Shown here piece by piece: positions 3-17,604 of a stretch of DNA of 64,000 bases. Within the stretch, counting starts at the first letter, position 1; each line of letters starts with the position of its first letter. Below the pieces are notes generated by a model. It was not told the origin of the DNA. It ran no database searches and saw only the letters and a program-made list of their open reading frames with translations. The translations under genes and the position numbers were made by a program. Location of the stretch: the NCBI RefSeq assembly GCF_000518985.1, contig NZ_JAEQ01000003.1, positions 310,001 to 374,000 on the forward strand, given 5' to 3'. This stretch comes from Chelativorans sp. J32. Lineage in GTDB: Bacteria > Pseudomonadota > Alphaproteobacteria > Rhizobiales > Rhizobiaceae.

Positions 3-326
3 GATCCCGCCACCGCATTTGCGCGGGTACTCCAGGAGCATCCGGTGAAGCTGCGCTCGGAGCTCGATGAGCAGGGCTTACAGGCGGTTGCCTTCGATCT
101 CGACCGGCCTGCTCATATCGTTTCCACCGCCGATGTCTCGATCTGCTCTCCCTTTTGGCCGCACCAGCCGGATCTCGGGCGTCATGGGGCGCATTTCGTG
201 GGCCTTAACGCGCGCTCGCTGCCATGGAATTATTATGATCGGCCTGCAAGCGAATGCATTGCCGATCATTGGGAAAAGCACCGCCTCGAACTCTATCGGC
301 GCGTGGGGTTGGGGGAGCCGGGCTAA
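3..326 (+). CDS. C-terminal fragment of an unrecognised protein (5' end outside window)
   Basis: The frame is open from the first complete codon of the window to a TAG at 324-326, so this is the last 107 residues of a gene that begins upstream. An internal ATG/GTG exists around 45 but there is no reason to prefer it over a truncated gene. The fragment is soluble, aromatic-rich (Trp, His, Tyr) and ends in a basic helix-like tail; I do not recognise the family. It is on the same strand as the inositol operon, 239 bases upstream of ino1, and may or may not belong with it. Confidence 0.5.
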   Translation, partial: DPATAFARVLQEHPVKLRSELDEQGLQAVAFDLDRPAHIVSTADVSICSPFWPHQPDLGRHGAHFVGLNARSLPWNYYDRPASECIADHWEKHRLELYRRVGLGEPG

Positions 327-458: not shown

Positions 459-483
459 GGAACAAAATCGGGGCATGCCTGTT
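459..483 (+). promoter_or_regulatory. Candidate EcfG (general stress sigma) promoter of the ino1 operon
   Basis: GGAAC at 459-463 is followed after 16 bases by TGTT at 480-483, one mismatch from the alphaproteobacterial EcfG consensus GGAAC-N16/17-CGTT. It lies 82 bases upstream of the ino1 ATG. The same arrangement with a perfect -10 precedes the glgE operon, which makes shared control plausible but unproven. Confidence 0.4.
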
Positions 484-565: not shown

Positions 566-1669
566 ATGCATGGTGCTCAAGTGCGCGTGGGTATTGTCGG
601 CGTTGGCAACTGCGCATCTTCATTTGTGCAGGGGCTCGCCTATTACCGTGGCGTGCGCTCCAACAACCCCATCCCCGGGATCATGAATGCTGATATCGGC
701 GGCTACCACATCGACGATATTGTCGTCAGCTCCGCTTTCGACGTGAACGCCTCGAAGGTGGGGCGCGACGTTTCAGAGGCGATCTTTGCCGAACCGAACA
801 ATACGATCCGGTTTGCGGATGTGGAGCCAATGGGCGTTCCCGTCTCGCGGGGAAGAACTCTCGACGGCATCGGTAAATATCTGCGCGACGAGATTCAGGA
901 ATCGGAAGAGCCCGAGGTCGATGTCGCCGGCGTGTTGATGGAGAGCAAGACGGAAGTGCTCGTCTCCTATCTTCCGGTCGGGTCGGAGCAGGCCGCACGC
1001 TTTTACGCGGAAGAAGCCTTGAAGGCCGGCTGCGCCTTCGTGAACTGCATGCCTGTTTTCATCGCTTCGCGGCCGGAATGGCGCAAGAAGTTCGAGGAAC
1101 GCGGCCTGCCCATCATAGGCGACGACATCAAGAGCCAGGTCGGAGCGACCATCGTTCACCGGGTGCTCACAAATCTTTTTCGCGAGCGTGGTATCAGGCT
1201 CGATCGTACCTACCAGCTCAATTTCGGCGGCAACACCGATTTCCAGAACATGCTGGAGCGGGAGCGGCTGGAATCGAAGAAGATCTCCAAAACCCAAGCG
1301 GTGACGAGCCAGCTCGGGGTGCCGATGGAACCGGAGAACATCCATGTCGGCCCGAGCGATCACGTGCCGTGGCTCTCGGACCGCAAATGGGCCTATATCC
1401 GCATGGAGGGCACCACCTTCGGCGGCGTGCCAATCAACTGCGAGCTGAAGCTTGAAGTCTGGGATTCCCCCAACAGCGCAGGCGTGGTGATCGATGCCGT
1501 GCGCTGCGCCAAGCTCGCGATGGATCGCGGCGAGGCAGGCGCGCTGGTCGGACCTTCCAGCTATTTTATGAAATCGCCGCCCGAGCAGTTCACGGACGCG
1601 GAAGCGAGACTCCGCACGTTGCAGTTTATTTCCGGCGAGGACGAGATAACGACCGGTCTCAAGCAGTGA
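566..1669 (+). CDS. ino1: Inositol-3-phosphate synthase (actinobacterial-type MIPS)
   Basis: A 367-residue protein that converts glucose-6-phosphate to 1D-myo-inositol 3-phosphate using NAD as a bound redox cofactor. The N-terminus carries the dinucleotide-binding glycine motif GIVGVGN (residues 9-15). The conserved active-site block NFGGNTD is at 219-225, followed by the Lys/Ser-rich segment [11 protein letters not shown] and the [10 protein letters not shown] block typical of the short prokaryotic MIPS form (about 360 residues, versus over 500 in eukaryotes). The ATG at 566 has a GGAG Shine-Dalgarno 8 bases upstream. The next gene starts inside the stop codon (GTGA overlap), so it heads an operon of seven genes ending at 7067. 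Inositol is not a general lipid component in alphaproteobacteria, so this gene implies a dedicated inositol product. Confidence 0.95.
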
Positions 1670-2286
1670 ACACGGTATTCCACCTATTGCGTCATGCCTC
1701 GCACGGTCATGTCGGTGCGGTCTTGACCGGGCGGCTTGCCGGCGCGCCACTTACGCCATTCGGAAGTGAGCAGGCTTTGGCGATCGGTCGCCATCTCATG
1801 GGGAAGAAGCTGGATGCCGTTTACACCAGCCCCCGGCTGCGCGCGCAGCAAACGGCGGAAATCCTTGCTCGTGAGACAGGGGTCGAGAGCGAGATCGCTC
1901 CGGAACTGGACGAGATCGATTTCGGGAGCTGGTCCGGCCGCAGTTTCGAGGAGCTCGAACGGGATCCTGCCTGGAAGCTGTGGAACGAGGAGCGCGACAC
2001 AGCGGCAACGCCGGCAGGCGACACCATGGCGGCGACCGCCGCCCGGATCACCGGCTTCATGGATCGGCTGCGCGGAGAATATCCCGGCAACACTTTCGTG
2101 CTGGTGAGCCATAGCGATGTGATCAAGGCAGCGCTTTGCCAGACCTTCGGAATCCCTTTTTCAAGCGTGCATGACTTCGAGATCGCGCCGGCGTCAATCA
2201 CCACCCTTTCCTTCGACAAAGACGGCCCAAGCCTCGTTTCACGCAATATAGAAGCCGTGCGGCTGACCGTGGGAGGCATTGCATGA
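1666..2286 (+). CDS. Histidine phosphatase family protein (phosphoglycerate-mutase-like)
   Basis: A 206-residue phosphatase of the branch-1 histidine phosphatase superfamily. The phospho-accepting RHA triad is at residues 9-11 (FHLLRHAS) and the second catalytic histidine is in the late [10 protein letters not shown] segment; the intervening [13 protein letters not shown] block is characteristic. It starts with GTG overlapping the ino1 stop by four bases. By position it could dephosphorylate inositol-phosphate or a glycosylated inositol-phosphate made by its neighbours. That is inference: the superfamily includes phosphatases for sugars, nucleotides and alpha-ribazole, and the substrate cannot be read from sequence. 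Confidence 0.85.
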
Positions 2287-3371
2287 AGCTCGTCATCTTC
2301 GGCCTGAGCATCAGTTCGTCCTGGGGGAACGGCCACGCCACTCTCTGGCGCGGCTTGGTCCGAGCGCTCGGACGGCGTGGCTGGACCGTCGTCTTCTTCG
2401 AGCGCGACCTTCCATATTACGCGGGCGCGCGGGATCTCCACGAGATCGAAGACGGAGAACTGATCCTCTATGGAGATTGGGATGAGGCGCTTCCGATCGC
2501 GCGCAGGCATCTTGCAGATGCGGATGTGGCGCTCGTCACATCCTATTGTCCGGACGGGATAGCCGCGTCCGATCTCGTCCTTTCCTCGCCGCGTCCGCTG
2601 CATGTCTTCTATGACCTCGATACACCGGTGACGCTCTCCGTGCTCGATCGTGGGGAGGCCACGACCTATATCGGTCCGCGCGGCCTGAAGGATTTCGATC
2701 TGGTCCTGAGTTATACAGGCGGCGATGCGCTGGACGCTTTGAAGTCGCGGCTCGGTGCGCGCATCGTGGCGCCGCTCTACGGCCATGTGGACCCGTGCGT
2801 TCACCGGCCCACCGCTCCCGCAGCAACTTACAAGGCGGATCTGTCCTATATCGGAACCTATGCGGAGGACCGGCAGGCAGGCGTTGAGGCGTTTTTCCTG
2901 GAGCCCGCCAGAAGGCGGCCCCATCTACGCTTCGTGATCGCGGGTGCGCAATATCCGCAGGACTTTCCTTGGGCGGACAATGTCTATTTCGTGCGGCATC
3001 TCCCGCCCGAGGAGCATCCCGCCTTCTACTCATCCTCGCGGCTGACGCTGAACGTCACGCGCCGTGCAATGGCAAAGACCGGATGGTGCCCCTCCGGGCG
3101 CCTGTTCGAGGCGGCTTCCTGTGGCGTGCCGATCGTCTCCGATTGCTGGGACGGCCTTGAGGCTTTCTTGGAACCGGGGCGCGAGATCCTGGCCGCCGTT
3201 ACCTCTGACGACGTGACGGACGCGCTTGATCTTACCGATGCCGAACTCCGGCGCATTGCCGAGGCCGCGCGGGATCGGGTGCTTTCCTGCCATACTTCGG
3301 AGCACCGCGCTGCCGATTTCGAAGCCATCGTCAACGACGTCAGATCAGCCGCCGCCGGTCGGGCGGCATAG
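2283..3371 (+). CDS. CgeB-like family glycosyltransferase
   Basis: A 362-residue GT-B-like protein resembling the CgeB (spore maturation) family. The N-terminal half has alternating beta/alpha segments starting at residue 1 ([10 protein letters not shown]). The C-terminal half has the donor-binding signature GRLFEAASCGVPIVSD, which corresponds to the Glyco_trans_1_2 domain, and the YIGTYAEDR linker motif before it. It overlaps the phosphatase gene by ATGA. There is no signal peptide or membrane segment, so it acts in the cytoplasm, presumably on a nucleotide-sugar donor and an inositol- or sugar-based acceptor made by this operon. CgeB members are poorly characterised biochemically. Confidence 0.85.
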   Translation: MKLVIFGLSISSSWGNGHATLWRGLVRALGRRGWTVVFFERDLPYYAGARDLHEIEDGELILYGDWDEALPIARRHLADADVALVTSYCPDGIAASDLVLSSPRPLHVFYDLDTPVTLSVLDRGEATTYIGPRGLKDFDLVLSYTGGDALDALKSRLGARIVAPLYGHVDPCVHRPTAPAATYKADLSYIGTYAEDRQAGVEAFFLEPARRRPHLRFVIAGAQYPQDFPWADNVYFVRHLPPEEHPAFYSSSRLTLNVTRRAMAKTGWCPSGRLFEAASCGVPIVSDCWDGLEAFLEPGREILAAVTSDDVTDALDLTDAELRRIAEAARDRVLSCHTSEHRAADFEAIVNDVRSAAAGRAA

Positions 3372-3391
3372 ACGTGCAGGGAGATACTCCC

Positions 3392-4237
3392 ATGTGGGGA
3401 ATTATTCCGGCTGCGGGATGCGGAAGCCGAATACAGCCTCTGGCCTTTTCCAAGGAGCTTCTTCCGGTAGGAAGCCGGCTTGCCGACGGATCCGAACGCC
3501 CTTGCGCCGTCAGCGAATATCTTTGCGAGCGCATGCTTGAGGGAGGGGCGGATAAGCTCTGTTTCGTCATCGCGCCCGGAAAGTCCGATATCCTGGAATA
3601 TTACGGTGGAACCTACGGGAACGCTTCCATCGCCTATGTCGTGCAACCGGAGGCAAGCGGGCTTTGCGATGCAATCTTCCGCGTCGCTCCGCTGGTTTCT
3701 CCGGAGGAACATGTGCTTGTCGGCCTGCCGGATACGATCTGGATGCCGGCCACCGGTTATCGGTCGCTTCCCGACGGCGTCCTCTCCTTCCTGCTCTTTC
3801 CGGTCGACAACCCCACCGTATTCGACGCGGTGGAGACGGACGAGGCGGGCAATGTGCTGGAAATCCAGGTGAAGCGAAAGGATGCTTCCACAAACTGGAT
3901 CTGGGGCGGGTTCAAGATGCCGGGCCGCATCCTGCATGAGCTTCTGGCGCTCTGGCGCGAGCGCGACCGCACCGACGAATATATGGGCACGCTGGTGAAT
4001 GCGTATCTTGCGAAAGGCGGGCAAGCGCGGGGCATCAAGGCCGGCGAAGCCTATGTGGATGTGGGCACGCTCGAGGGATATCGCGCGGCCAACGACCTCT
4101 TGCGGCAAACGGCGGTCGAGGAGGGCGCTCCCGCACCCGGCACGCATGTCACGGCGGGCGCTCCCGCGGGGCGCCAATTACTGGCACACCGCCGTGAACT
4201 CGTAATGTCCTTCAAGCAAGTGGAACGAGGGGTTTGA
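3392..4237 (+). CDS. Sugar-1-phosphate nucleotidylyltransferase (RmlA/GalU-like)
   Basis: A 281-residue NTP_transferase-fold enzyme that should activate a sugar-1-phosphate to a nucleotide sugar. The signature loop AAGCGSRIQP is at residues 7-16 with the conserved Lys at 21 (SKELLPVG), and the metal-binding Asp is in LVGLPDTIW. I chose ATG 3392 because an AGGGAGA Shine-Dalgarno precedes it by about 7 bases; an in-frame GTG at 3374 lacks one. The late block GEAYVDVGTLEGYRAA is typical of glucose-1-phosphate nucleotidylyltransferases. The gene sits in the operon between two sugar-handling genes and probably supplies the donor used by the glycosyltransferases. Confidence 0.85.
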   Translation: MWGIIPAAGCGSRIQPLAFSKELLPVGSRLADGSERPCAVSEYLCERMLEGGADKLCFVIAPGKSDILEYYGGTYGNASIAYVVQPEASGLCDAIFRVAPLVSPEEHVLVGLPDTIWMPATGYRSLPDGVLSFLLFPVDNPTVFDAVETDEAGNVLEIQVKRKDASTNWIWGGFKMPGRILHELLALWRERDRTDEYMGTLVNAYLAKGGQARGIKAGEAYVDVGTLEGYRAANDLLRQTAVEEGAPAPGTHVTAGAPAGRQLLAHRRELVMSFKQVERGV

Positions 4238-4240
4238 CTG

Positions 4241-5158
4241 ATGATCGAAGCTGCGATGATCTGGAACGAGCCGAACAACAAGTCCCACTGGGATCCTGAA
4301 ATCGATCCCGACTGGTCGCGCTTTGCGGAAATGGCGATCCTCGCGGCGGATGCGATCGGCAATGTGAATCCCGACGTGGTGCGTGTATTGGGCGGCATTT
4401 CGCCCATCGATCCGCTTTTCATCCAGAATTTGCAGGGCAAGGGGGTGCTCGATCACCTGGATGCCATCGCGGTCCATGGCTTTCCGCTCGACTGGAATCT
4501 CTGGCAGATCCATGAGTGGCCGCAGAAGCTCGCGGAGATCCAGCTGCTGACGCATTTGCCGGTATGGGTGAGCGAAGTCGGCATTTCCACCTTCGGCGCC
4601 GAAGAAGTACAGGTATGGGGCCTTCAGCGCACCTTTGAGCTGTTGAAGGGACGCGCCCCTCGTATCCAGTGGTACAGTCTTTTCGATCTGCCGCAGGCCT
4701 GGGGCGCCACCACGCGGCACAGGGAGGCGGAGGGGTCCTCCTATTACCGCCATTTCTATATGGGCCTCATCCGCGAAGACGGTACACCGAAGCCGGCGCT
4801 CGAGAAATTCGCCGAATGCACACCGGAATTCGGCCTCTGCCAATGGTTCCATTTCGAGGATCCGAGGCTTGATGAGGCGGTTGCCTGGATGAGGCGGCTC
4901 GGCGTCAAATATCTGCGCACGGGGCTTTCCTGGGCAGACAGCTTCCGGCCGAATGCGCTCGACTGGTTCGACCGGCAGATGGAGGCGCTCGCCGATTTCG
5001 ATGTCACCGTGACCTTCTGCTTCACGCCGGAGCATCGGGGGATCGCTCCCCACCATACCAGCGCCCCGCAAGTGCCGCAGGAATTTGCGGATTTCTGCGC
5101 CTCTATGATCGAGCGATACGCGGGAAGAGCGGACGGCCGGATGCGAGGTGCGGCATGA
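4241..5158 (+). CDS. Clan GH-A (GH39/beta-xylosidase-like) glycosidase, apparently circularly permuted
   Basis: The 305-residue protein starts almost directly with the acid/base motif WNEPNN (Glu10), which in clan GH-A barrels follows strand 4 in mid-protein. A second catalytic-type Glu is in VWVSEVGIST (Glu112, the nucleophile strand), and the barrel's last helix (GTPKPALEKFAE) ends near residue 192. After this comes what should be the N-terminal part of the barrel: LGVKYLRTGLSWAD (220-233), FCFTPEH and FADFCASMIERYAGR (282-296), the segment that normally runs straight into WNEPN. The upstream neighbour ends three bases before, and the next gene overlaps by ATGA, so no missing half is hidden nearby. 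Function is unproven; it may hydrolyse, transfer or only bind a glycoside of the operon's product. Confidence 0.7.
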   Translation: MIEAAMIWNEPNNKSHWDPEIDPDWSRFAEMAILAADAIGNVNPDVVRVLGGISPIDPLFIQNLQGKGVLDHLDAIAVHGFPLDWNLWQIHEWPQKLAEIQLLTHLPVWVSEVGISTFGAEEVQVWGLQRTFELLKGRAPRIQWYSLFDLPQAWGATTRHREAEGSSYYRHFYMGLIREDGTPKPALEKFAECTPEFGLCQWFHFEDPRLDEAVAWMRRLGVKYLRTGLSWADSFRPNALDWFDRQMEALADFDVTVTFCFTPEHRGIAPHHTSAPQVPQEFADFCASMIERYAGRADGRMRGAA

Positions 5159-6015
5159 CGGCTTTGCCCGCTGCTAGCGAGGAGGAGCTTTTCGAGCCTG
5201 CCGAATCCCTGCTGGAACTTATCTGCTCACCGGAGGGATATTCCTTCGACTGCCATGATGTGGCGGTGGTGGTTGCCCATCCGGATGACGAGACGATCGC
5301 GATCGGCGGTCAACTTGCGCGGATGCGGGGTGTTCGCATCGTGCATGTGACGGACGGCGCGCCGGCTGACATGAAAGATGCGGACGCGAACGGTTTTGCG
5401 CGTCGCGAAGATTACGCTTCTGCCCGTCGGCGTGAAGTGGAAGCGGCGGTGGCGATCGCGGGCGTCAGGCCCGAGGCGTGCCATCTCATCGGGATCCCCG
5501 ACCAGGCTTCTGCTTATCGCCTTGGCGAGATCGCTTCCCGGCTCGCGGAATTTTTCGAGTTTCACAAGATTGGCACGGTCTTCACCCATGCGTTCGAGGG
5601 CGGGCATCCCGACCACGATTCCACGGCCTTTGCAGTGCGGGCCGCGGGCCATCTGATGGAGCGGCGCAATCTGGCGCCGCCCGCGATTTTCGAGTTTCCG
5701 CTTTATCGGATGAAGCGCGGACAAAGCGTCTTCCAGGACTTCATTCCCAATGGGGAGCCGGAGTACATGATCGCACTCGACCACGAGACGGCCGAGTTGA
5801 AGCAGCGGATGCTCGCGGCCCATGGCACCCAGCAGCGTGTGTTGGGATCGTTCAAGACGAAAACCGAGCGCTTTCGGCCTATTTCGCCCTGCGATTTCCG
5901 CAAGCTGCCGAGCGAGGTGCTCTACGCCCACTACGATTGGGGCCTTCAGCCTTCCGACTGGCCCGATCTCATCGACAAGGCAAGCCGGGAACTTGAACTT
6001 CCGCAATGGCTCTGA
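5155..6015 (+). CDS. PIG-L/LmbE family zinc-dependent deacetylase
   Basis: A 286-residue member of the family that includes GlcNAc-PI de-N-acetylase, MshB (mycothiol) and BshB (bacillithiol). The zinc-binding AHPDDE motif is at residues 41-46 and the second motif HPDHDSTA starts at 151, with conserved Arg and Asp between. The extra N-terminal 35 residues are acidic and not part of the core. It overlaps the glycosidase gene by ATGA and the following glycosyltransferase by ten bases. In a locus that makes inositol phosphate and has GT4 and GT-B enzymes, removal of an N-acetyl group from a GlcNAc-inositol-type intermediate is the most economical hypothesis. The exact substrate is not visible. 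Confidence 0.88.
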   Translation: MTALPAASEEELFEPAESLLELICSPEGYSFDCHDVAVVVAHPDDETIAIGGQLARMRGVRIVHVTDGAPADMKDADANGFARREDYASARRREVEAAVAIAGVRPEACHLIGIPDQASAYRLGEIASRLAEFFEFHKIGTVFTHAFEGGHPDHDSTAFAVRAAGHLMERRNLAPPAIFEFPLYRMKRGQSVFQDFIPNGEPEYMIALDHETAELKQRMLAAHGTQQRVLGSFKTKTERFRPISPCDFRKLPSEVLYAHYDWGLQPSDWPDLIDKASRELELPQWL

Positions 6016-7067
6016 CCGTCCTCAGCGTCGCCTATCCCTTTGCTCCGGTCGGACCGGACGCGGTGGGCGGTGCGGAACAGGTGCTGTCCGCCCTCGATAG
6101 GGCTCTCGTGCGGAATGGCCATCGCTCCATCGCGATCGCCTGCGAGGGATCGCGGGTGGCGGGGGAGCTTGTGCCCCTGCCTCTGCCCGGAGGCACCATA
6201 GACGACCTGGTTCGGAAGCAAACCTGGGCGAAGCTGCGCGGGCTTATCGGCGAAGTCCTCGCGCGCGAGCCTGTTGACCTGGTGCACATGCATGGGATCG
6301 ATTTTCATGCCTATCTGCCCGAAGAGGCTCCCACGCTTGCAACGCTGCATCTGCCGCTCGATTGGTATCCGGATTGGATTTTCGAGCGTCGCATGAATCT
6401 CTGGCTCCACTGTGTTTCGGCAGCACAGCACAAGACGGCTCCGGAGGGCGCCACGCTCTTGCCTCCAATCCCGAACGGCGTCCCGCGCGAGTTGTTCGAG
6501 ACGCGCTGCCGCAAGCGCGATCATGCCATCGTCCTCAGCCGGATCTGCCCGGAGAAGGGAATCCATCTAGCAATGGAAGCCTGCCGGCTCGCCGGTCAGC
6601 CCTTGCTCATCGGCGGCCAGGTCTTTCCCTATGAGGAACATGAGCGCTATTTCCGCGAACAAGTAGTACCTTTGCTCGCTCCGGCGCGCCGCTTCCTCGG
6701 GCCTCTCGGCTTTCACAGGAAGCGGCGGCTCCTCGCATCGGCCAGATGTGCCATCGTGCCGAGCCTGGTTGCCGAGACCAGCTCGCTCACGGCCATCGAG
6801 GCGCTGGCCTGCGGCACGCCGGTGATCGCTTTCCCGCATGGCGCCCTTCCGGAGGTGATCGAACATGGGCGGACGGGCTTCATCGTCAAGGACGTGCCGG
6901 ACATGGCGCGGGCCATCGCCGCCGCATCCTCTCTCGACCCCGAGGTCTGCCGGAAGGCCGCATGGGAAAGGTTTTCGCCGGACCTGATAGAGCAGCGCTA
7001 TCTCAGCCTCTATCGGGAAATTGCCCTCGCCGCGGCACCTATGCATGCCCCGGTCCGAAACGGCTAG
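6006..7067 (+). CDS. Glycosyltransferase family 4 protein
   Basis: A 353-residue GT-B glycosyltransferase. The N-terminal acceptor domain shows GGAEQVLSALDRALVRNGH (residues about 20-38). The C-terminal donor domain carries the E-x7-E motif in ETSSLTAIEALACGTPVIAF and the GALPEVIEHGRTGF block. No membrane segment is seen. Its start lies ten bases inside the deacetylase gene, which makes it the last gene of the tightly coupled operon beginning at 566. MshA, the enzyme that puts GlcNAc on inositol-3-phosphate in mycothiol synthesis, is also GT4, so this is a candidate for an analogous step. GT4 enzymes use many donors and acceptors. Confidence 0.88.
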   Translation: MALTVLSVAYPFAPVGPDAVGGAEQVLSALDRALVRNGHRSIAIACEGSRVAGELVPLPLPGGTIDDLVRKQTWAKLRGLIGEVLAREPVDLVHMHGIDFHAYLPEEAPTLATLHLPLDWYPDWIFERRMNLWLHCVSAAQHKTAPEGATLLPPIPNGVPRELFETRCRKRDHAIVLSRICPEKGIHLAMEACRLAGQPLLIGGQVFPYEEHERYFREQVVPLLAPARRFLGPLGFHRKRRLLASARCAIVPSLVAETSSLTAIEALACGTPVIAFPHGALPEVIEHGRTGFIVKDVPDMARAIAAASSLDPEVCRKAAWERFSPDLIEQRYLSLYREIALAAAPMHAPVRNG

Positions 7068-7896: not shown

Positions 7897-7921
7897 GGAA
7901 CCACCGCGCAGGGACTGCGTT
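7897..7921 (+). promoter_or_regulatory. EcfG (RpoE2-type) general stress promoter of the glgE-trehalose operon
   Basis: GGAAC at 7897-7901, a 16-base spacer and CGTT at 7918-7921 match the consensus of alphaproteobacterial EcfG-dependent promoters exactly. The -10 element ends 41 bases before the glgE ATG. Trehalose and glycogen genes being in the general stress regulon is known from rhizobia, so the biological context supports the match. Confidence 0.7.
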
Positions 7922-7962: not shown

Positions 7963-9957
7963 ATGGACCGTCCCGGCCAGGCGCTCCTGCAAAAGCTTGC
8001 TGCAAACCGAATCGCCATCGAAACCGTCGAACCTGCAATTGACGGCGGACGTTTCGCCGCCAAGACGATTGTCGGCGAGCGTTTCAGGATCGAGGCCGAC
8101 ATATTTTGCGACGGCCACGAAATCATAGCGGCCGCCGTGCTTCATCGCCGGCGCGGCGAAAGGACCTGGAGCGAGACGCCGATGCGGCATCTCGTGAATG
8201 ACCGCTGGCGCGCCACCGTCGTCTTCGATGAGGTTGGTCATCACGAGTTCAGGATCGCTTCTTGGCGCGATCTCTTCGCCACATGGCGCATGGACACCGC
8301 AAAGAAACACGAAGCGGGGCAGCAGATAGCGCTGGAACTGCAGGAAGGGCGGTTGCTGGTCGAGAAGGCCCTCGGCGTGCGCACCAGCGGGACCCCTCAT
8401 GACCGCTCGGCGCTAAAGGCGCTCCTGGCGGAAGTGACTTCCTCGGCATCGGAAGGCGATGCGCTTGCGGTTTTGATGAGCGAAGACATGGCGGTGTTGA
8501 TGCGCCGCCTCGCCGTGCGCGTAAACTTCACCCAGACGGATACGATCTTCCCGGTGTTCGTTGACCGGGAAAGGGCAGGCTTTTCCGCCTGGTATGAACT
8601 GATGCCGCGCTCGCAGTCAGGCAGTCCGGACCGTCACGGTACTTTTGATGACGTGATCACCAGGCTTCCCTATGTTCGCGATCTCGGCTTTGACGTGCTT
8701 TATTTTCCGCCGATCCACCCGATCGGCCGCACCAACCGAAAGGGGCGCAACAACAGCCTCACCGCGGGTCCCGATGATCCCGGCAGTCCCTATGCCATTG
8801 GTGCCGAGGAGGGCGGTCACGATGCAATCCACGCCGAACTTGGCACCTTTGAGGATTTCGCCAGGCTGGTGCAGGCGGCGCGGGAGCATGGGCTCGAGAT
8901 CGCCCTCGATTTCGCCATCCAGTGCTCGCCCGACCACCCGTGGATAAGGGACCATCCGGAATGGTTCGATTGGCGGCCGGACGGCACGATCAAATTCGCC
9001 GAGAACCCGCCGAAGAAATACGAGGATATCGTCAACGTCCATTTCTACCGCGATGCGATCCCCGGCCTCTGGTACGCGTTGCGCGACATCGTCCTCTTCT
9101 GGCTTGAGAAGGGTGTCCGCATCTTCCGCGTAGACAATCCGCACACAAAGCCGTTGCCCTTCTGGGAGTGGATGATCGAGGAGGTGCGTCAGGTCGATCC
9201 GGGCGTGATCTTCCTCGCCGAAGCGTTCACCCGGCCGAAGATGATGAAGCGGCTCGCCAAGGTCGGCTTCAATCAGTCCTATTCCTATTTCACTTGGCGC
9301 AACACGAAATGGGAACTTACCGAATATCTGACGGAACTCACACAGACGGACTGCCGCCATTACATGCGGCCGAACTTCTTCGTGAACACGCCGGACATCA
9401 ATCCTTATTACCTCCAGACGAGCGGGCGCCCGGGTTTTCGGGTGAGGCTGATGCTCGCTGCCACACTAGGCACGAATTACGGCGTCTATAGCGGGTTCGA
9501 GCTTTGCGAGGCAGAGGCCATGCCGGGCAAGGAAGAATATCTCAATTCGGAGAAATACGAGATCCGAGCATGGGATTGGGACCGGTCAGGGAACATCAAG
9601 GTCGACATCATGTTCGTGAACAGGCTGAGGCACGAAAACCCGGCGCTCCGGCAGTTCACCAACCTCAAGTTCTACAATGCTTGGAACGACAACATCCTCT
9701 ATTTCGGGAAGTACACGGACGACCTGTCAAACTTCCTGCTCTTTGCCATCAATCTCGATCCCCATAACCCGCACGGCGCCCATTTCGAGGTGCCGCTGTG
9801 GGAGTTCGGGTTGACCGATGATGCGATGATCGAGGCGGAGGACCTCGTCACCGGCCAGCCCTTCACTTGGACCGGGAAGGTCCAGCACATGTTTCTCGAC
9901 CCGCACCAGCGCCCATACATGGCCTGGCGGCTGATACCTCCAGGAAATCGCCGATGA
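7963..9957 (+). CDS. glgE: Alpha-1,4-glucan:maltose-1-phosphate maltosyltransferase (GH13_3)
   Basis: A 664-residue enzyme that transfers maltose from alpha-maltose-1-phosphate to the non-reducing end of alpha-1,4-glucans. The order is the N-terminal GlgE-specific beta/helical region (about 1-200), the catalytic (beta/alpha)8 barrel and a C-terminal beta domain. Catalytic residues by motif are the nucleophile Asp391 (FRVDNPHTKPLPFWEW), the acid/base Glu420 (FLAEAFTRPKMM) and the transition-state Asp478 (NTPDINPYYL); this spacing agrees with characterised actinobacterial GlgE enzymes. It is first in a seven-gene operon and overlaps treS by ATGA. With the maltokinase in the next gene it forms the trehalose-to-glycogen route. 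Confidence 0.96.
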   Translation: MDRPGQALLQKLAANRIAIETVEPAIDGGRFAAKTIVGERFRIEADIFCDGHEIIAAAVLHRRRGERTWSETPMRHLVNDRWRATVVFDEVGHHEFRIASWRDLFATWRMDTAKKHEAGQQIALELQEGRLLVEKALGVRTSGTPHDRSALKALLAEVTSSASEGDALAVLMSEDMAVLMRRLAVRVNFTQTDTIFPVFVDRERAGFSAWYELMPRSQSGSPDRHGTFDDVITRLPYVRDLGFDVLYFPPIHPIGRTNRKGRNNSLTAGPDDPGSPYAIGAEEGGHDAIHAELGTFEDFARLVQAAREHGLEIALDFAIQCSPDHPWIRDHPEWFDWRPDGTIKFAENPPKKYEDIVNVHFYRDAIPGLWYALRDIVLFWLEKGVRIFRVDNPHTKPLPFWEWMIEEVRQVDPGVIFLAEAFTRPKMMKRLAKVGFNQSYSYFTWRNTKWELTEYLTELTQTDCRHYMRPNFFVNTPDINPYYLQTSGRPGFRVRLMLAATLGTNYGVYSGFELCEAEAMPGKEEYLNSEKYEIRAWDWDRSGNIKVDIMFVNRLRHENPALRQFTNLKFYNAWNDNILYFGKYTDDLSNFLLFAINLDPHNPHGAHFEVPLWEFGLTDDAMIEAEDLVTGQPFTWTGKVQHMFLDPHQRPYMAWRLIPPGNRR

Positions 9958-12900
9958 ACACCATGGAAAGGCTTGCTTCGGAGATCGCAGCGCCCGGTGA
10001 GGACGAAGCGTTGCAGGTTGTGGCGCCCGCTGGCCCAACGCCACCGGACTGGTACAAGGACGCTATCATCTACCAGCTCCACATCAAGGCCTTCCACGAT
10101 TCCAACGGTGATGGAATGGGAGACTTCAATGGCCTGATGCAGCGGCTCGACTATATCGAGCGGCTGGGCGTGAACGCGATCTGGCTCCTACCATTCTATC
10201 CTTCGCCGCTCAGGGACGACGGCTACGACATCGCGGACTACCGCTCCATCAATCCTTCCTATGGGACGATGCGCGACTTCCGCCGTTTCGTCGCCGAAGC
10301 CCATCGCCGCGGCATCCGCGTGATCACGGAACTCGTCATCAACCACACCTCGGACCAGCATCCCTGGTTCCAGAGGGCGCGGCACGCACGAAAGGGTTCG
10401 GCTGCGCGCAACTTCTATGTCTGGAACGATGACGACGAGCGGTACCCCGAGACGCGCATCATCTTTCTGGACACGGAGAAATCGAACTGGACCTGGGATC
10501 CGGTTGCCGGCCAATTCTTCTGGCATCGCTTCTATTCCCACCAGCCGGACCTCAATTTCGATAACCCCCGGGTGCTGGAGGCGGTTATCAAGATCATGCA
10601 TTTCTGGCTGGACATGGGGGTGGACGGCCTGCGGCTCGACGCCATCCCTTATCTGGTCGAAAGGGATGGGACGAACAACGAAAACCTCCCCGAGACGCAT
10701 GAGATCCTGAAGAAGATCCGCCGCGCGCTGGACGAGAAATATCCGGACCGGATGCTGCTCGCCGAGGCGAACCAGTGGCCGGAGGACACCCGGCCCTACT
10801 TCGGCGAGGGCGACGAATGCCACATGGCGTTCCATTTCCCGCTGATGCCGCGCATCTATATGGCGCTGGCGCAGGAAGACCGTCATCCGATCTCCGACAT
10901 CATGCGGCAGACGCCGGAAATCCCGGAGAGCTGCCAGTGGGCCATCTTCCTGCGCAACCATGACGAACTCACGCTCGAAATGGTCACGGATCGGGAGCGC
11001 GATTATCTCTGGCGCACCTATGCAGAGGATATGCGCGCGCGCATCAATCTCGGCATACGCAGGCGGCTTGCCCCGCTCATGCAGAACGACCGGCGCAAGA
11101 TCGAGCTGATGAACGCACTGCTCTTCTCCATGCCCGGCACGCCTGTCGTCTACTACGGCGACGAACTCGGCATGGGCGACAATATCTATCTCGGCGACCG
11201 GGACGGTGTGCGCACGCCCATGCAGTGGTCGCCCGACCGCAATGGCGGCTTCTCGCGCGCCAATCCGCAAGCACTCTACCTGCCGCCGATCATGGACCCG
11301 GTCTACGGCTACCAGACGATCAATGTGGAGGCGCAGGAAGCAGATCCATCGTCGCTGCTCAACTGGGTGCGGCGCATGATCGGAGTGCGAAAGCAGCACT
11401 CCGCTTTCGGGCGTGGCGACTTCACGATGCTCTATCCGCGCAACCGGCGCATCCTCGCCTACACACGCAGCGACGCCAACGAGACAATACTTTGCGTCGC
11501 AAATCTGTCGCGCTCGCCTCAGGCAGTTGAGCTCGATCTTTCAAAGTATCGCGGCTGCGTGCCGATCGAACTCGTCAGCCAGTCGCCATTCCCGCCGATC
11601 GGCGATCTTCCCTATATGCTGACACTTACCGGCTACGGCACCTTCTGGTTCGTGCTTGCGAGCGAAGCGCAGGCGCCGGACTGGCATAGCAATGTGCCGG
11701 AGCCGCTGCCGGAATTCATCACGCTCACCATGGTGGGCGGCCGGATCGAGCGGGCGCTCGAGGGCCGCGAGCGGCGACAGCTCGAGCAGGATGTGCTGCC
11801 GCAATTCATGCTTCGGCAACGTTGGTATGGGGCCAAGGGCGAGGCGATACGCTCAGCCGGTATCCGGGAAATCGCCAAGCTGGGCGACGAGGCGGGCCTG
11901 CTCACCATCGCAGACGTCGAGCTCTCTATTTCCGGACGGCAGCAATATCTCCTGCCGCTGACCGTGCTCTGGGGTGAGGAGAATGTGCAGTTCGGAGCGC
12001 CCAAGCTTTCGGTGACGCTTGCGCGCGTGCGCAAGGGGCCGCAACTCGGCGCCCTTATCGATGGCTCCTATGACGATCGCTTCGCTGCCGAGCTGATGCG
12101 CCGCATGCAGGAGAACCAGGAGATCGAGGTCTCAGGCGGGCGCCTGCGCTTCTATGGCAATGAGCAACTCTCGGCCCTTCGTTTCGAGGAGCCACCGTCG
12201 CCGCTCATGGGAGAGCAGAGCAACGTCTCGGTGGCATTCGACCGGCAGGTTCTTCTCAAGATTTTTCGGCGCCTGAGGCCTGGCGACCAGCCGGAAGTGG
12301 AGGTGGCGCGGTTCCTGACGGAAGTGGCCGGCTTCCGGAACACACCCGCCTTCCTCGGGATGGTGGAATATGAGGAGGAGGCCGGCGCGAAGACGGTTAT
12401 CGCCAGCGTTTCCGGTTTCGTGGAGAACCAGGGCGATGCCTGGAGCGTCTTCGTGCATGCGCTCGAGCGGCAGATCGAGGATGAGACGCTTGCGCCCCCC
12501 GCCGCGGGCAACGGCGCGCCGACAGAAGGACAAACAGCGCAGTTCCTCTATCCGCTGGATCTGCTTCGCACGCTCGGGGAGCGGACCGGAGAAATGCATT
12601 CGGCATTCGCCATCGAGACCGATTTGCCGGCATTCCGCTGTGAGCCGATACGCCGCTCGGATATCTCGAGCTGGATCAAGGACCTGAAGCAGCAGGTCGC
12701 ACTTGCGCGGGAAGGGCTGGTTCGCAATCGGGACCGCCTGCCCCTCAATACGAGGGAAAATGTCGAGCAGCTTCTCTCATTGAAGCACCAGATCGACACT
12801 CGCGTGAACGAACTCAGCAAAATTGCGCCTTCCGGCAAGAAATCGCGCATTCACGGCGACTATCATCTCGGCCAGGTGCTCGTATCGAAGCAGGACCTCT

Positions 12901-13304
12901 ACATCATCGATTTCGAAGGCGAGCCGCGTCGAAGCCTGGAAGAGCGCCGAGGGAAAAGCTCGCCCTTGCGCGACGTTGCCGGCATGCTGCGTTCCTTCGA
13001 CTATGCCGCGTGGACCGCGGTGCGGCAGGTTGCTGCCCGTCTGCCCGACCAGGCGCGCGACAGCGCCGCTCTTGCTCGCCAATGGCAGCGCCGCATGAGC
13101 GAGGAATTCCTGGAGGGCTATCGTGCGGCTGCTTCGGGCGCACAGAACCAGCCGCAAGACGAGACTGCGTGGCAAGCATCGCTCGAACTTTTCCTGCTGC
13201 AGAAGGGTTTCTACGAAATCAATTACGAACTCTCCAATCGTCCGGATTGGGTGGGCATTCCAGTCCGAGGCGTGCTCGACCTGGTTCAAGGGAGAAGCGG
13301 ATGA
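9954..13304 (+). CDS. treS: Trehalose synthase fused to maltokinase (TreS-Pep2)
   Basis: A 1116-residue fusion. The N-terminal part (to about residue 580) is GH13_16 trehalose synthase, which interconverts trehalose and maltose, with nucleophile Asp229 ([11 protein letters not shown]), acid/base Glu271 ([12 protein letters not shown]) and Asp337 (RNHDELTLE). The C-terminal part is maltokinase (Pep2), which phosphorylates maltose with ATP; the catalytic loop HGDYHLGQ is at 967-974 and the metal-binding DFEG at 986-989. I chose ATG 9954 because it overlaps the glgE stop as ATGA, the same junction used along the operon. The two activities make trehalose into maltose-1-phosphate, the substrate of GlgE. 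Such fusions are known in several proteobacteria; in mycobacteria the two are separate. Confidence 0.95.
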
Positions 13305-15514
13305 ATATCGCTGCCGAAGCGGCCCCTTGGAGGCTCGACGACCCGCACGCCATCGGCGCGCTGGTGGCTGGCAGGTGTAACGACCCGTTCTCGGTGCTGG
13401 GGCCGCACGAGACCGCAGCCGGGATCGTGCTGCGCGTGCTCCGACCGGAAGCCGAAACGGCAGAAGCGGTCGAGCCGGATACAGGCAAGAGCCTCGGCAA
13501 GTTGCTTAAGCGCCATGCGCGAGGCTTTTTCGAAGGACTGATCTCAAGGGAGCCGACGGTTCCCCGGTACCGGCTTCGCTTCACGCGCGAGGGGGAGAGT
13601 TGGGAAGAGGAAGATCCTTATCGCTTCCCCAGCACTTTTGGCGAACTCGACCTTTATCTGATGGGGGAGGGGCGTCACCAGCGCCTCTACGAAAAGCTCG
13701 GCGCGCATCCGATGACCTGCGACGGAGTGGCAGGCACCCGCTTCGCCGTGTGGGCGCCCAATGCGAGCCGCGTCAGCGTCGTGGGCAACTTCAACGGTTG
13801 GGACGGCCGCCGTCACCAGATGAGGCTCCATCCAGGCGTCGGCGTGTGGGAGATCTTCGTGCCCGATGTCCGTCCGGGAGAGCTCTATAAATACGAGATC
13901 ATCGGTAACGGTGGTGAACTGCTTCCACCAAAAGCCGACCCCGTTGGTTTTCGCGCCGAAATACCTCCGGCTACGGCCTCGATAGTCCACGGCTTGCCGC
14001 GGATGGAGTGGAGCGACGGTGAGTGGATCGAACACCGCATCGGGAAAAACGACCGGCGTGCACCCATCTCGATCTACGAGGTGCATCTCGGCTCCTGGCG
14101 TCGGCACGAGGACGGCGCCTACCTCACCTATGACGAACTTGGCGATCAGTTGATCCCCTATGTGAAGGAGATGGGCTTCACCCATATCGAATGCATGCCG
14201 GTCAGCGAGCATCCGTTCTCCGGCTCATGGGGCTACCAACCAGTCGGGCTTTACGCGCCGACGAGCCGCTTCGGCACGCCGGAGGAGTTCGCCCGTTTCG
14301 TCGATCGCTGCCACCAAGAAGGCATCGGCGTGATCGTGGACTGGGTGCCCGCGCATTTCCCTTCCGATGCGCACGGGCTCGCCCGCTTTGACGGCACGGC
14401 GCTCTACGAACATGCCGACCCGCGGCTCGGCTTTCACCGCGACTGGAACACGCTGATCTACAATTTCGGACGACGCGAGGTGGCGAACTTCCTGACGGCG
14501 AACGCTCTCTTCTGGCTCGATCAATACCACATCGACGGGCTGCGCGTGGATGCCGTAGCCTCGATGCTCTACCTCGATTACAGCCGCCAGCCCGGCGAGT
14601 GGGTCCCCAATGTGCACGGAGGCAACGAGAATCTGGAGGCGATCGCCTTCCTCCGGGACACGAATACCGCGCTTTTCGGCGCACATCGCGGCGCCACCTC
14701 GATCGCGGAGGAATCGACGGCGTTTCCGGGCGTGTCGCGGCCCGTCTATGCGGGCGGCTTGGGCTTCGGCTTCAAGTGGAACATGGGCTGGATGCACGAC
14801 ACGTTGGACTATATGCGCCACGAACCGATCCATCGGCGGTTTCACCACGACCGCATGACCTTCGGCCTGATATACGCCTTTTCGGAGAACTTCATCCTGC
14901 CCCTTAGCCACGACGAGGTGGTGCACGGGAAAGGCTCGCTGATCGGCCGCATGCCCGGCGATCGCTGGCAGAAATTCGCGAACCTGCGCGCCTACTTCAC
15001 CTTCATGTGGACCCATCCGGGCAAGAAGCTCCTCTTCATGGGCGGCGAGTTCGCCCAGGAGAGGGAGTGGAACCATGACTGGCAGCTCGATTGGCACCAT
15101 CTGGAAGACCCGATGCATCAGGGCGTACGCGATCTCATTCGCGACCTGAACCTGATCTATCGGAACGAACGGTCGCTGCATGAGCTGGATTGCGAACCGG
15201 AAGGCTTCGAATGGATTGATGCTTCGGACCCCGGCATCAGCACCTATGTCTACCTGCGAAGGGGCACGGGAGATGCGCGGCCCGTCGTCATCGCATGCAA
15301 CTTCACCCCCGTCGTGCGCGAGGATTTCCGCATCGGCCTGCCCCATGCGGGAAGCTGGCAGGAAATCATCAATAGCGACGACCGGCGCTACGGCGGCTCC
15401 GGCGTCGTCAATGGAACCGTTACAGCGACGGAAGAACCGTGGCACGGGCGGCCGGCTTCAGCCAGCTTGAGGCTGCCTCCATTGGGTGCCGTCGTGCTTG
15501 CCGGTGCTTCATGA
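13301..15514 (+). CDS. glgB: 1,4-alpha-glucan branching enzyme (GH13_9)
   Basis: A 737-residue enzyme that introduces alpha-1,6 branches into glycogen. It has an N-terminal N1 region, a CBM48 domain ([20 protein letters not shown]), the catalytic barrel and a C-terminal beta domain. Catalytic motifs are Asp417 ([10 protein letters not shown]), Glu470 ([11 protein letters not shown]) and the third Asp in [12 protein letters not shown]. The length matches E. coli GlgB (about 728). The ATG at 13301 sits in the treS stop (ATGA) behind an AGGGAGA Shine-Dalgarno. In-frame upstream codons inside treS are not used. It branches the linear chains built by GlgE. Confidence 0.97.
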
Positions 15515-17604
15515 CAGGGGTTTCCTACTTGCGCGTAGATACTGGCCTTCCATATCCGCTCGGCGCCACCTGGGACGGGTCCGGCGTCAATGTCGCCGTT
15601 TTCTCGGCCCATGCCGAAAAGATCGAACTGTGCCTTTTCGATGCCCAGGGGCGGCGAGAGATCCGCCGCATTCCCCTGCCGGAATATACGCATGAGGTAT
15701 GGCACGGTTACTTTCCGGATATGCGGCCGGGGCAGGTTTATGGATTGAGGGCCTATGGCCCGTATGATCCCGCCAAGGGACATCGGTTCAATCCGAACAA
15801 GCTCTTGATCGACCCTTATGCGAAGCTGCTCATCGGCGATATCCGCTGGCATGACGCTTGTTTCGGTTACCGGGTCGGCGGCGCACGGCAGGATCTCGCG
15901 ATGGACCGACGCGACTCCGCTTTTGTCATGCCGAAATGCGTTGTGACGGACACGGCGGCCACATGGGGCAACGATGTGCGTCCGCATCGGCCCTGGGAAG
16001 AGACGATCATCTACGAGGCCCATGTGAAGGGCATGACCGCGCTCCATCCGGACATTCCCGAACAGATGCGCGGCACCTTTGGCGGGCTCGCGGACTCCCG
16101 GGTGATTGACTATCTCGTCAAGCTTGGCATCACGGCGATCGAGCTCCTGCCTGTGCAGGCGTTCTTCGACGACCGTTACCTGGTCGAGAAACGCCTTACG
16201 AACTATTGGGGCTACAACACCATCGGCTTTTTCGCGCCGGCTCCGCGCTACATTTCACCGGGCGGCGGCCTGCACGAGTTCAAGCGGATGGTGCGCAAGC
16301 TGCACGAGGCCGGCATCGAGGTGATCCTCGACGTGGTCTATAATCATACGGCTGAAGGGAGCGAGCTTGGGCCCACGCTTTCCTTCCGCGGGCTAGACAA
16401 TGCCAGCTACTACATCCTCGGCGATGATCCTCGTTACTATTACGACACGACCGGCTGCGGAAACACGCTGAACCTGAAGCATCCGCGCGTGTTGCAGATG
16501 GTGATGGATTCGCTGCGTTACTGGGTCGAGGAATGCCATGTGGACGGCTTCCGCTTCGATCTCGCAACGGCGCTCGGCCGCGAGCGCGACAGCTTCGAGC
16601 CATCCTCGGTGTTCTTCGATACGGTGCGGCAAGACCCTGTCCTGTCGCGTGTGAAGCTGATCGCGGAACCGTGGGACTTGGGTCCGGACGGCTATCAGCT
16701 CGGCAATTTCCCTCCGGGCTGGGGCGAGTGGAACGGTGCCTATCGCGACTGGGTCCGCAGCTTCTGGCGCGGCGACGAACGGGCAGCGCCGGATCTCGCG
16801 AGCGGTCTGCTCGGTTCGGCCGGCATGTTTGACCGGCGAGGTCGCAGACCGTGGGCGAGCGTCAATCTCATCACGGCGCATGACGGTTTCACGCTGCACG
16901 ACCTCTACGCCTACAACGAACGGCACAACGAGGCGAACAAGGAGGACAATCGCGACGGGCACAGCGACAACCGAAGCTGGAACTGCGGTGTCGAGGGCCC
17001 GACCGACGACGAGAACATCAAGGCGCTCAGGGCCAAGATGCGCCGCAACGCCATTGCCACTCTGCTTCTCTCCCAGGGCACGCCCATGATCCTCATGGGT
17101 GATGAAGTCGGCCGCACGCAGAACGGCAACAACAATGCTTATTGCCAGGACAATGAGATAAACTGGCTGGCATGGGGCAATCGGGAGCCGGAGGATGATG
17201 CCTTCCTCCAATTCGTCCGCCGGCTTATCGCATATCGCCGCGCCCATCCGCGTCTGCGGCTGAAGGATTTCCTGCACGGAAAGATCGTCGCGGAAAAGTA
17301 TCGCGACGTTTCCTGGCTGCGGCCGACGGGCGAGCCGATGACGGACGAGGATTGGGCCGATCCCGGTCTCAAATGCTTTGGGCTGATGCTCTGCGATGAG
17401 CGCGGCACGTGCATATTGATCCTGTTCAACGCCTTCCACGAACCGCTCGAGTTCAATCTTCCGCGCGAACTCGGTGCTGCCGGATGGAAGGTGACGATGC
17501 GTACGGACACCGGACAGTGGCCGGTATGGGAAGCAATGCGTGCTCCGCATACCCTGGAACTCGCCGACCGCTCGATGGTTGTGCTGGAAGGCCGTGTACG
17601 ATGA
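15511..17604 (+). CDS. glgX: Glycogen debranching enzyme GlgX (GH13_11 isoamylase type)
   Basis: A 697-residue enzyme hydrolysing alpha-1,6 branch points. It has an N-terminal CBM48 domain ([20 protein letters not shown]) and a catalytic barrel with [10 protein letters not shown], nucleophile Asp350 ([14 protein letters not shown]), acid/base Glu386 ([16 protein letters not shown]) and the third Asp in [12 protein letters not shown]. The start is ATG 15511 overlapping the glgB stop; an in-frame GTG further upstream lies inside glgB and is unlikely. GlgX releases linear maltodextrins, which are the substrates of the TreY, TreZ and MalQ enzymes encoded directly downstream. Confidence 0.96.

Follow-up and report, generated by a model that had tools for sequence, protein, structure and literature searches.

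The window analysed here, 64,000 nucleotides of Chelativorans sp. J32 (contig NZ_JAEQ01000003.1, positions 310,001 to 374,000), was found to carry near its left end a compact operon of seven genes headed by Ino1, a myo-inositol-1-phosphate synthase. The operon is one half of a pathway split over two loci, and by its promoter sites the gene set appears to be under the general-stress (sigma-EcfG) switch. On balance, and with somewhat better than even confidence, the pathway is proposed to be cytosolic and to assemble a small inositol-containing oligosaccharide, for which the operon would supply the inositol half. The promoter class and the fifth gene, which encodes a circularly permuted clan GH-A-like glycosidase, are the most notable features of the locus. 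Both had been missed by an original prediction made from the letters of the window, which saw half of a real conserved locus and gave most weight to its optional part.

The seven genes lie where they had originally been placed, between 566 and 7067, and are on the plus strand. Neighbouring genes overlap by 4, 4, 4 and 10 bases or are separated by 2 and 3 bases. The first (566..1669) encodes an Ino1 of the actinobacterial type which matched TIGR03450 at 535 bits, under the equivalog cut-off of 638, and PDB 1gr0, which we take to be the Ino1 of Mycobacterium tuberculosis, at 485 bits over 354 residues. Judged by its sequence, it is a true Ino1 and not a mycothiol-type equivalog. It is followed by a histidine phosphatase (1666..2286; PF00300, 158 bits), a candidate inositol-phosphate phosphatase, by C1, a CgeB-like glycosyltransferase (2283..3371; PF13524, 142 bits), and by a sugar-1-phosphate nucleotidylyltransferase (3374..4237; PF00483, 40 bits) which is distant from RmlA, GalU and AglF (best NCBIfam match 55 bits, best PDB match 35 bits). 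The permuted clan GH-A-like glycosidase (4241..5158) precedes a PIG-L family deacetylase (5155..6015; PF02585) and GT4a, a glycosyltransferase of family GT4 (6006..7067; PF13692/PF00534). The AHPDDE and HPDHD motifs of the PIG-L protein are intact and invariant across 13 aligned rows (a fragmented copy in locus L127 excluded). Apart from the glycosidase, all of the families named in the original prediction were upheld by Pfam and NCBIfam.

The locus extends to the left beyond the window edge as a unit methyltransferase-GNAT-UNK346. The methyltransferase passes TIGR04290 (397 bits, cut-off 300), and the GNAT gene (PF13480; L034:8561-9523) lies outside the window, ~0.5 kb beyond its left edge and ~1 kb from Ino1. 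The original statement that no acetyltransferase is present was therefore mistaken, because the window edge cuts the locus.

The second locus (L041) was found on the same contig ~106 kb left of the operon, at contig ~189.4-201.7 kb. Here Gfo/Idh and ADH genes are divergent from a run Epi1-Epi2-GT4b-Ca-Cb-Cc-Epi3, and the 2.6 kb between them holds other reading frames; the locus thus contributes three epimerases, four glycosyltransferases and the ADH-Gfo/Idh pair. For comparison 80 named loci were used, the best 80 of at least 515 relatives picked by the GH-A protein, with counts leaning to its close relatives. Both gene sets stand together in many of these loci and in Bradyrhizobium sp. 195 (two plasmids). 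The two plasmids of the latter (L037, L038) are conjugative, and each carries a joined cluster including TIGR04295 and phosphopentomutase genes. No TIGR04295 gene was seen in the window's own L034 or L041, the whole genome not having been searched for it.

The general-stress assignment comes from sites ahead of the leading genes. A site of the sigma-EcfG type in the relaxed form (GGAAC-N17-GTT) occupies 459..483 on the plus strand and ends 82 bases ahead of the ino1 start. GGAAC-N16-CGTT is the published motif of Rhizobium etli sigma-EcfG1 (PMC3892343), and the RpoE2 targets of Sinorhizobium meliloti listed in PMC6180224 carry it as well. Across the 80 loci, 250 bases upstream of each gene were scanned with a relaxed (GGAAC-N16..18-GTT) and a strict motif (GGAAC-N16..17-CGTT), matches with <80% coverage or <250 bases upstream being dropped. 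The relaxed site was found upstream of Ino1 in 63/76 and of Epi1 in 25/41 cases, compared with 292 of 12,622 background 250-mers (2.3%, true sites included). The remaining genes gave 0/80 (GH-A), 1/78 (phosphatase), 5/69 (methyltransferase), 1/47 (C1), 1/46 (nucleotidyltransferase), 0/43 (GT4b), 4/39 (Ca), 0/39 (Epi2), 0/29 (Cc), 0/28 (Cb), 1/25 (GT4a) and 2/25 (Epi3). A second scan took in 22 loci from the window's genus and its close relatives (matches with <70% coverage or <300 bases upstream dropped) and placed a site ahead of Epi1 in 15/15, Ino1 in 8/8 and ADH in 10/12 cases. The methyltransferase had one in 7/13, exactly the seven that head a unit, while Epi3 had one in 1/15, the other core genes none and the flanking MetE one in 1/5. 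The genome of the window also encodes NepR. Plasmid pSymB of S. meliloti 1021 (L149) carries the same core set with sites ahead of Ino1, Epi1 and ADH; no match for C1, the nucleotidyltransferase, PIG-L or GT4a was found in this locus.

The product of the fifth gene had been described as a clan GH-A glycosidase-like protein. The landmarks of the clan are indeed there, but their order is swapped, and searches of Pfam and NCBIfam returned zero family matches. By sequence comparison and structure modelling, the protein is a naturally permuted barrel whose chain begins with strand beta-4, with beta-4 to beta-8 in residues 1-185 and beta-1 to beta-3 in residues 190-297. A conventional GH-A domain is fused ahead of Epi2 in the second-type loci of related species (one open frame in L057), and fused GH-A-Epi2 open frames of 683-742 amino acids were found in seven near relatives. 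In 7/7 loci, residues 7-184 of the window protein correspond to the C-terminal part of the conventional domain and residues ~190-294 to its N-terminal part. Rotation by ~186 residues gave global scores of 280-338 against all seven unpermuted domains, compared with -45 to -10 unrotated. An unpermuted relative outside the class (G791:C5:17036-17740) lies in a 382-amino acid frame; proteins with the conventional order therefore need not be long, and this one is apparently not fused.

The structure model built with 35 sequences (predicted local distance difference test, pLDDT, 84; predicted template-modelling score, pTM, 0.85) has eight strands (2-7, 47-53, 75-80, 108-113, 142-145, 197-200, 224-230 and 254-260) in permuted order. 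The predicted fold is that of clan GH-A, an eight-stranded barrel with a Glu after beta-4 and a Glu at beta-7, without the usual strand order. In the model E10 stands just after strand 2-7 and E112 inside strand 108-113; both are invariant, as is M1, in 35 rows. By analogy with the clan, where Asn-Glu-Pro follows beta-4 and a Glu stands at beta-7, E10 is presumably the acid/base and E112 the nucleophile. Positions 3-161 of the permuted-protein profile matched residues 132-298 of PslG (E 4e-4), the best solved match, and the C-terminal part resembled N-terminal parts of other glycosidases at E 0.2-0.3, not significant alone. Close fits by Foldseek to the GH10 enzyme XynB (159 columns, root-mean-square deviation (rmsd) 3.8) and to GH2 glucuronidases (~185-216 columns, rmsd ~4) take in roughly one half to two thirds of its length; whole-length alignments with clan GH-A enzymes and other barrels gave an rmsd of ~7-12.

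The permuted form tracks Ino1. Among 16 genomes of the genus, nine have the permuted form, all with Ino1 (9/9), six have the unpermuted form without it (0/6), and one has neither form and no Ino1. In an order sample of 397 genomes, the permuted form was found in 31 and Ino1 in 31/31 of these, 1.7-8.1 kb from the permuted gene. Eight genomes of that sample carry the unpermuted form, three of them together with the permuted one, and the five with the unpermuted form only lack Ino1 (0/5). A class sample of 289 genomes gave six permuted and six unpermuted forms (one by a single piece only) and none with both, and a phylum sample of 388 genomes gave 12 full-length permuted forms, all in the window's class, with nine others unpermuted or partial. 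The samples overlap, the window's genome being in all of them and several order genomes also in the phylum sample. Separately, TIGR03450-type Ino1 occurs without either GH-A form in many genomes of the order (G028, G026, G040, G331 and others), and another use of inositol may exist there.

The neighbourhood is conserved beyond this genome, so that one of the grounds on which the original prediction would have fallen does not apply. Counts were taken within ~10 kb of the GH-A gene at an E limit of 1e-8, and as some loci are <20 kb they are lower bounds. The phosphatase was present in 79 of the 80 loci, Ino1 in 76, the methyltransferase in 69, Ca, Cb and GT4b in 50 each, C1 in 47, the nucleotidyltransferase in 46, Epi1 and Epi2 in 41 each, Cc in 37 and Epi3 in 27. 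Lower counts were obtained for GT4a (26, one at 32% identity), GNAT (25), PIG-L (12, from a protein search), TIGR04295 (10) and phosphopentomutase (6). The PIG-L count was checked by gap lengths where GT4a follows the GH-A gene. PIG-L stands between the two genes in the window and in nine of the 12 PIG-L loci, and many Mesorhizobium loci have GT4a right behind the GH-A gene without PIG-L. A Skermanella plasmid carries the order C1-nucleotidyltransferase-PIG-L-GT4a-GNAT-GNAT, with no Ino1 annotated within ~12 kb. From these arrangements, PIG-L, GT4a and GNAT behave as a variable module. The self-contained aminosugar-inositol pathway originally proposed is therefore retained in part: a link to inositol is plausible, but the operon is not complete by itself and the aminosugar steps are a variable add-on. 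In Bradyrhizobium retamae (L127, ~10956-12994) the PIG-L and GNAT matches are fragmented, which suggests decay or sequencing errors.

Six recurrent neighbour families were identified by Pfam, from a survey of unassigned frames of at least 120 amino acids with codon-position GC bias, and include no transporter, flippase or polymerase, rarer neighbours being judged by sequence start only. Further neighbours were observed in parts of the sample. A family of ~590 amino acids without a Pfam match (L087:6367-8124 and homologues) occurs in 36/80 loci, mostly beside Ino1, and also in Azospirillum (L039) and S. meliloti (L149). In loci of the Ensifer/Sinorhizobium type (L074, L087, L089, L122, L136, L138 and L149), FrhB-like and polysaccharide pyruvyl transferase genes stand behind the GH-A gene, and the methyltransferase is at the opposite end (L149) or was not seen in the stretch examined.

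The sequences themselves show the gene content, its division between two loci, the promoter sites, the permutation and the link of the permuted form with Ino1. From these a scheme can be proposed, in which every substrate, the order of the steps, the product and its protective role are inferred. Ino1 would convert glucose 6-phosphate to inositol phosphate, from which the histidine phosphatase would release inositol. Sugar nucleotides would come from the nucleotidyltransferase together with the second locus, through its epimerases and its ADH-Gfo/Idh pair, and the CgeB-like and GT4 transferases may build a chain that the TIGR04290 methyltransferase would methylate. The permuted GH-A enzyme may trim or transglycosylate an inositol-bearing intermediate and would replace the unpermuted, epimerase-fused enzyme of Ino1-less relatives; it probably acts on such an intermediate where relatives lacking inositol use the fused form. 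PIG-L, GT4a and GNAT would act as a variable decoration, adding an N-acetyl-hexosamine, deacetylating it and re-acylating it.

Several observations weigh against this reading. The evidence is genomic throughout, and relatedness inflates all of the counts. Locus 2 is present in Ino1-less genomes (L050, L053, L056, L057, L058 and L062), so inositol is dispensable for the pathway as a whole, and Ino1 is not exclusive to the pathway, as 50/361 order genomes with neither GH-A form have a TIGR03450-type match (eight of these weak and partial). The two GH-A forms exclude each other in the genus and in the class sample, but not strictly, since 3/397 order genomes have both, one of the unpermuted matches being weak and partial. 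The promoter signal rests partly on the relaxed form of the motif, as the strict motif is rarer (Ino1 21/76, Epi1 15/41, background 0.55%). The rSAM (TIGR04295) and phosphopentomutase genes are patchy (10/80 and 6/80), and the products of different lineages may therefore differ. Finally, export may still take place although no transporter was recognised within 10 kb, the neighbours being only partly identified.

The last point bears on the most probable of the alternatives, an exported or surface glycan such as an exopolysaccharide or a lipopolysaccharide decoration with export genes elsewhere, which is nevertheless considered unlikely. The many glycosyltransferases and nucleotide-sugar enzymes would suit it, as would the polysaccharide pyruvyl transferase and FrhB-like neighbours in loci of the Ensifer/Devosia type and the match of the GH-A profile to PslG, which we take to be a glycosidase of the Psl exopolysaccharide. 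However, no Wzx, Wzy, ABC exporter or polyprenyl-phosphate transferase was found among the six recurrent families (~10 kb, 80 loci; rarer families not run against Pfam), and the lack of transport and polymerisation genes in these families argues, more weakly than the evidence on thiols, against an exported polymer. The secreted glycoside and the lipid headgroup offered by the original prediction found no support in the same survey. A headgroup of the phosphatidylinositol or glycosylphosphatidylinositol (GPI) type is quite improbable: PIG-L and GT4 acting on inositol form what we take to be the GPI combination, but the recurrent families include no lipid-phosphate transferase (no genome search for a phosphatidylinositol synthase was made), and the phosphatase beside Ino1 would drain inositol 1-phosphate, the substrate used by bacterial phosphatidylinositol-phosphate synthase.

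A low-molecular-weight thiol, in which GT4 and PIG-L make glucosaminyl-inositol to which cysteine is added as in mycothiol or bacillithiol, was judged very improbable. Ino1, phosphatase, GT4, PIG-L and the upstream GNAT are all present, and the mycothiol model is the best NCBIfam match for Ino1, though under its cut-off. However, both ligases are missing. The best match to MshC in the genome is 242 bits (cut-off 485.1), as for an ordinary cysteinyl-tRNA synthetase, and the same model matches below cut-off in 13/14 control genomes; BshC gave no match in the genome at E 0.001, compared with matches in 3/14 controls. GT4a is far from MshA (TIGR03449, 34 bits, cut-off 462.5), being much closer to other GT4 enzymes (7fg9, 127 bits) than to the MshA structure 7qsg (36 bits), and PIG-L was not found in 68/80 loci. 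Together the missing ligases and the distance of GT4a from MshA argue against a thiol. The mycothiol and bacillithiol readings were thus rejected, and the earlier view that no MshC-like ligase is present and that the end product, plausibly linked to inositol, is not mycothiol stands. That the permuted protein is a relic without catalytic activity, or an artefact of assembly, is scarcely credible. Its position outside every Pfam and NCBIfam family would suit such a reading, but residues 1 to 286 or beyond were matched in 80/80 loci, and the invariant M1, E10 and E112 and the confident eight-strand model also speak against it.

A broader proposal may also be made, to which we give rather less than even confidence. 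Alphaproteobacteria would make a hitherto undescribed family of cytosolic inositol oligosaccharides induced by general stress, and the switch to inositol would have accompanied the permutation of the GH-A enzyme and its release from the epimerase fusion. The product may serve as an unrecognised protectant in rhizobia (including S. meliloti 1021), Methylobacterium, Microvirga and Roseomonas, and its aminosugar decoration, added by PIG-L, GT4a and GNAT, would vary with the lineage. The switch of the alphaproteobacterial general stress response is known and many of its effector genes are without function; here a conserved set of more than 12 enzyme genes is apparently placed under it by promoter sites, and the proposal, if true, would describe a new class of protective metabolite. 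As the laboratory model S. meliloti 1021 carries the set on pSymB, the product could be sought there through single-gene deletions. The glycosidase offers a clear-cut case of a very common catalytic barrel that was circularly permuted in nature, and sister species keep its unpermuted relative in this pathway.

Two further features of the window border the operon. The gene UNK346, the last of the upstream unit, begins outside the window (L034:9523), and the C-terminal 107 amino acids of its 267-amino acid product are encoded at 3..326 on the plus strand. Pfam and NCBIfam gave no match for it and its single-sequence structure model was uninformative (pLDDT 32); homologues of 68-82% are found in L043, L044 and L065 and a divergent one in Skermanella (L036). 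To the right, 7963-23799 holds an alpha-glucan/trehalose-type operon (GlgE, a TreS-like protein, GlgB, three further GH13 proteins and GH77), preceded by a sigma-EcfG-type site, GGAAC-N16-CGTT, at 7897..7921 on the plus strand and outside the pathway. With three EcfG-type matches in the window and 1.1 expected, this single site is weak alone. The GlgE/TreS operon was rejected as a part of the pathway, since only 3/80 loci have GlgE close to the permuted enzyme and the adjacency is local.

Among known systems, mycothiol biosynthesis (Ino1, MshA, phosphatase, MshB, MshC, MshD) has the Ino1 type and the GT4, PIG-L and GNAT classes in common with the locus, which differs in having no MshC, a GT4 that is not MshA-like, an optional PIG-L and a much larger glycan machinery. 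Members of clan GH-A (PslG 5bx9 and 4zn2, GH10 XynB 4pmy and GH2 beta-glucuronidases) share with the glycosidase the Asn-Glu-Pro after beta-4 and the Glu at beta-7, to which we presume the usual roles, but the window protein runs from beta-4 to beta-8 and then from beta-1 to beta-3, and whole-length fits are poor (GH5 5ecu and mannanase 1gvy, rmsd ~11, TM ~0.3). Literature listings gave no GH-A example of such a permutation, and to our knowledge there is none. In the GH70 glucansucrases, which belong to another clan, a glycosidase barrel is likewise permuted naturally, relative to GH13. A search of the open-access literature gave no paper on the gene cluster, and it is not described in the available parts of PMC8877191, PMC3892343, PMC6180224, PMC3616915, PMC3596328 and PMC12542648. 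A further close system is the hypothetical oligosaccharide cluster of TIGR04290 and TIGR04295 (meth_Rta_06860 and B12_rSAM_oligo), both hypothetical equivalogs without assigned function in the NCBIfam listing, so that curators had already recognised related families. The label "rhizo-twelve" may belong to this system. The window locus shares the TIGR04290 methyltransferase with it, and in Bradyrhizobium sp. 195 a TIGR04295 gene (715 bits, cut-off 400) stands in one cluster with genes of the window type, whereas the genome of the window splits the pathway over two loci and adds PIG-L, GT4a and GNAT.

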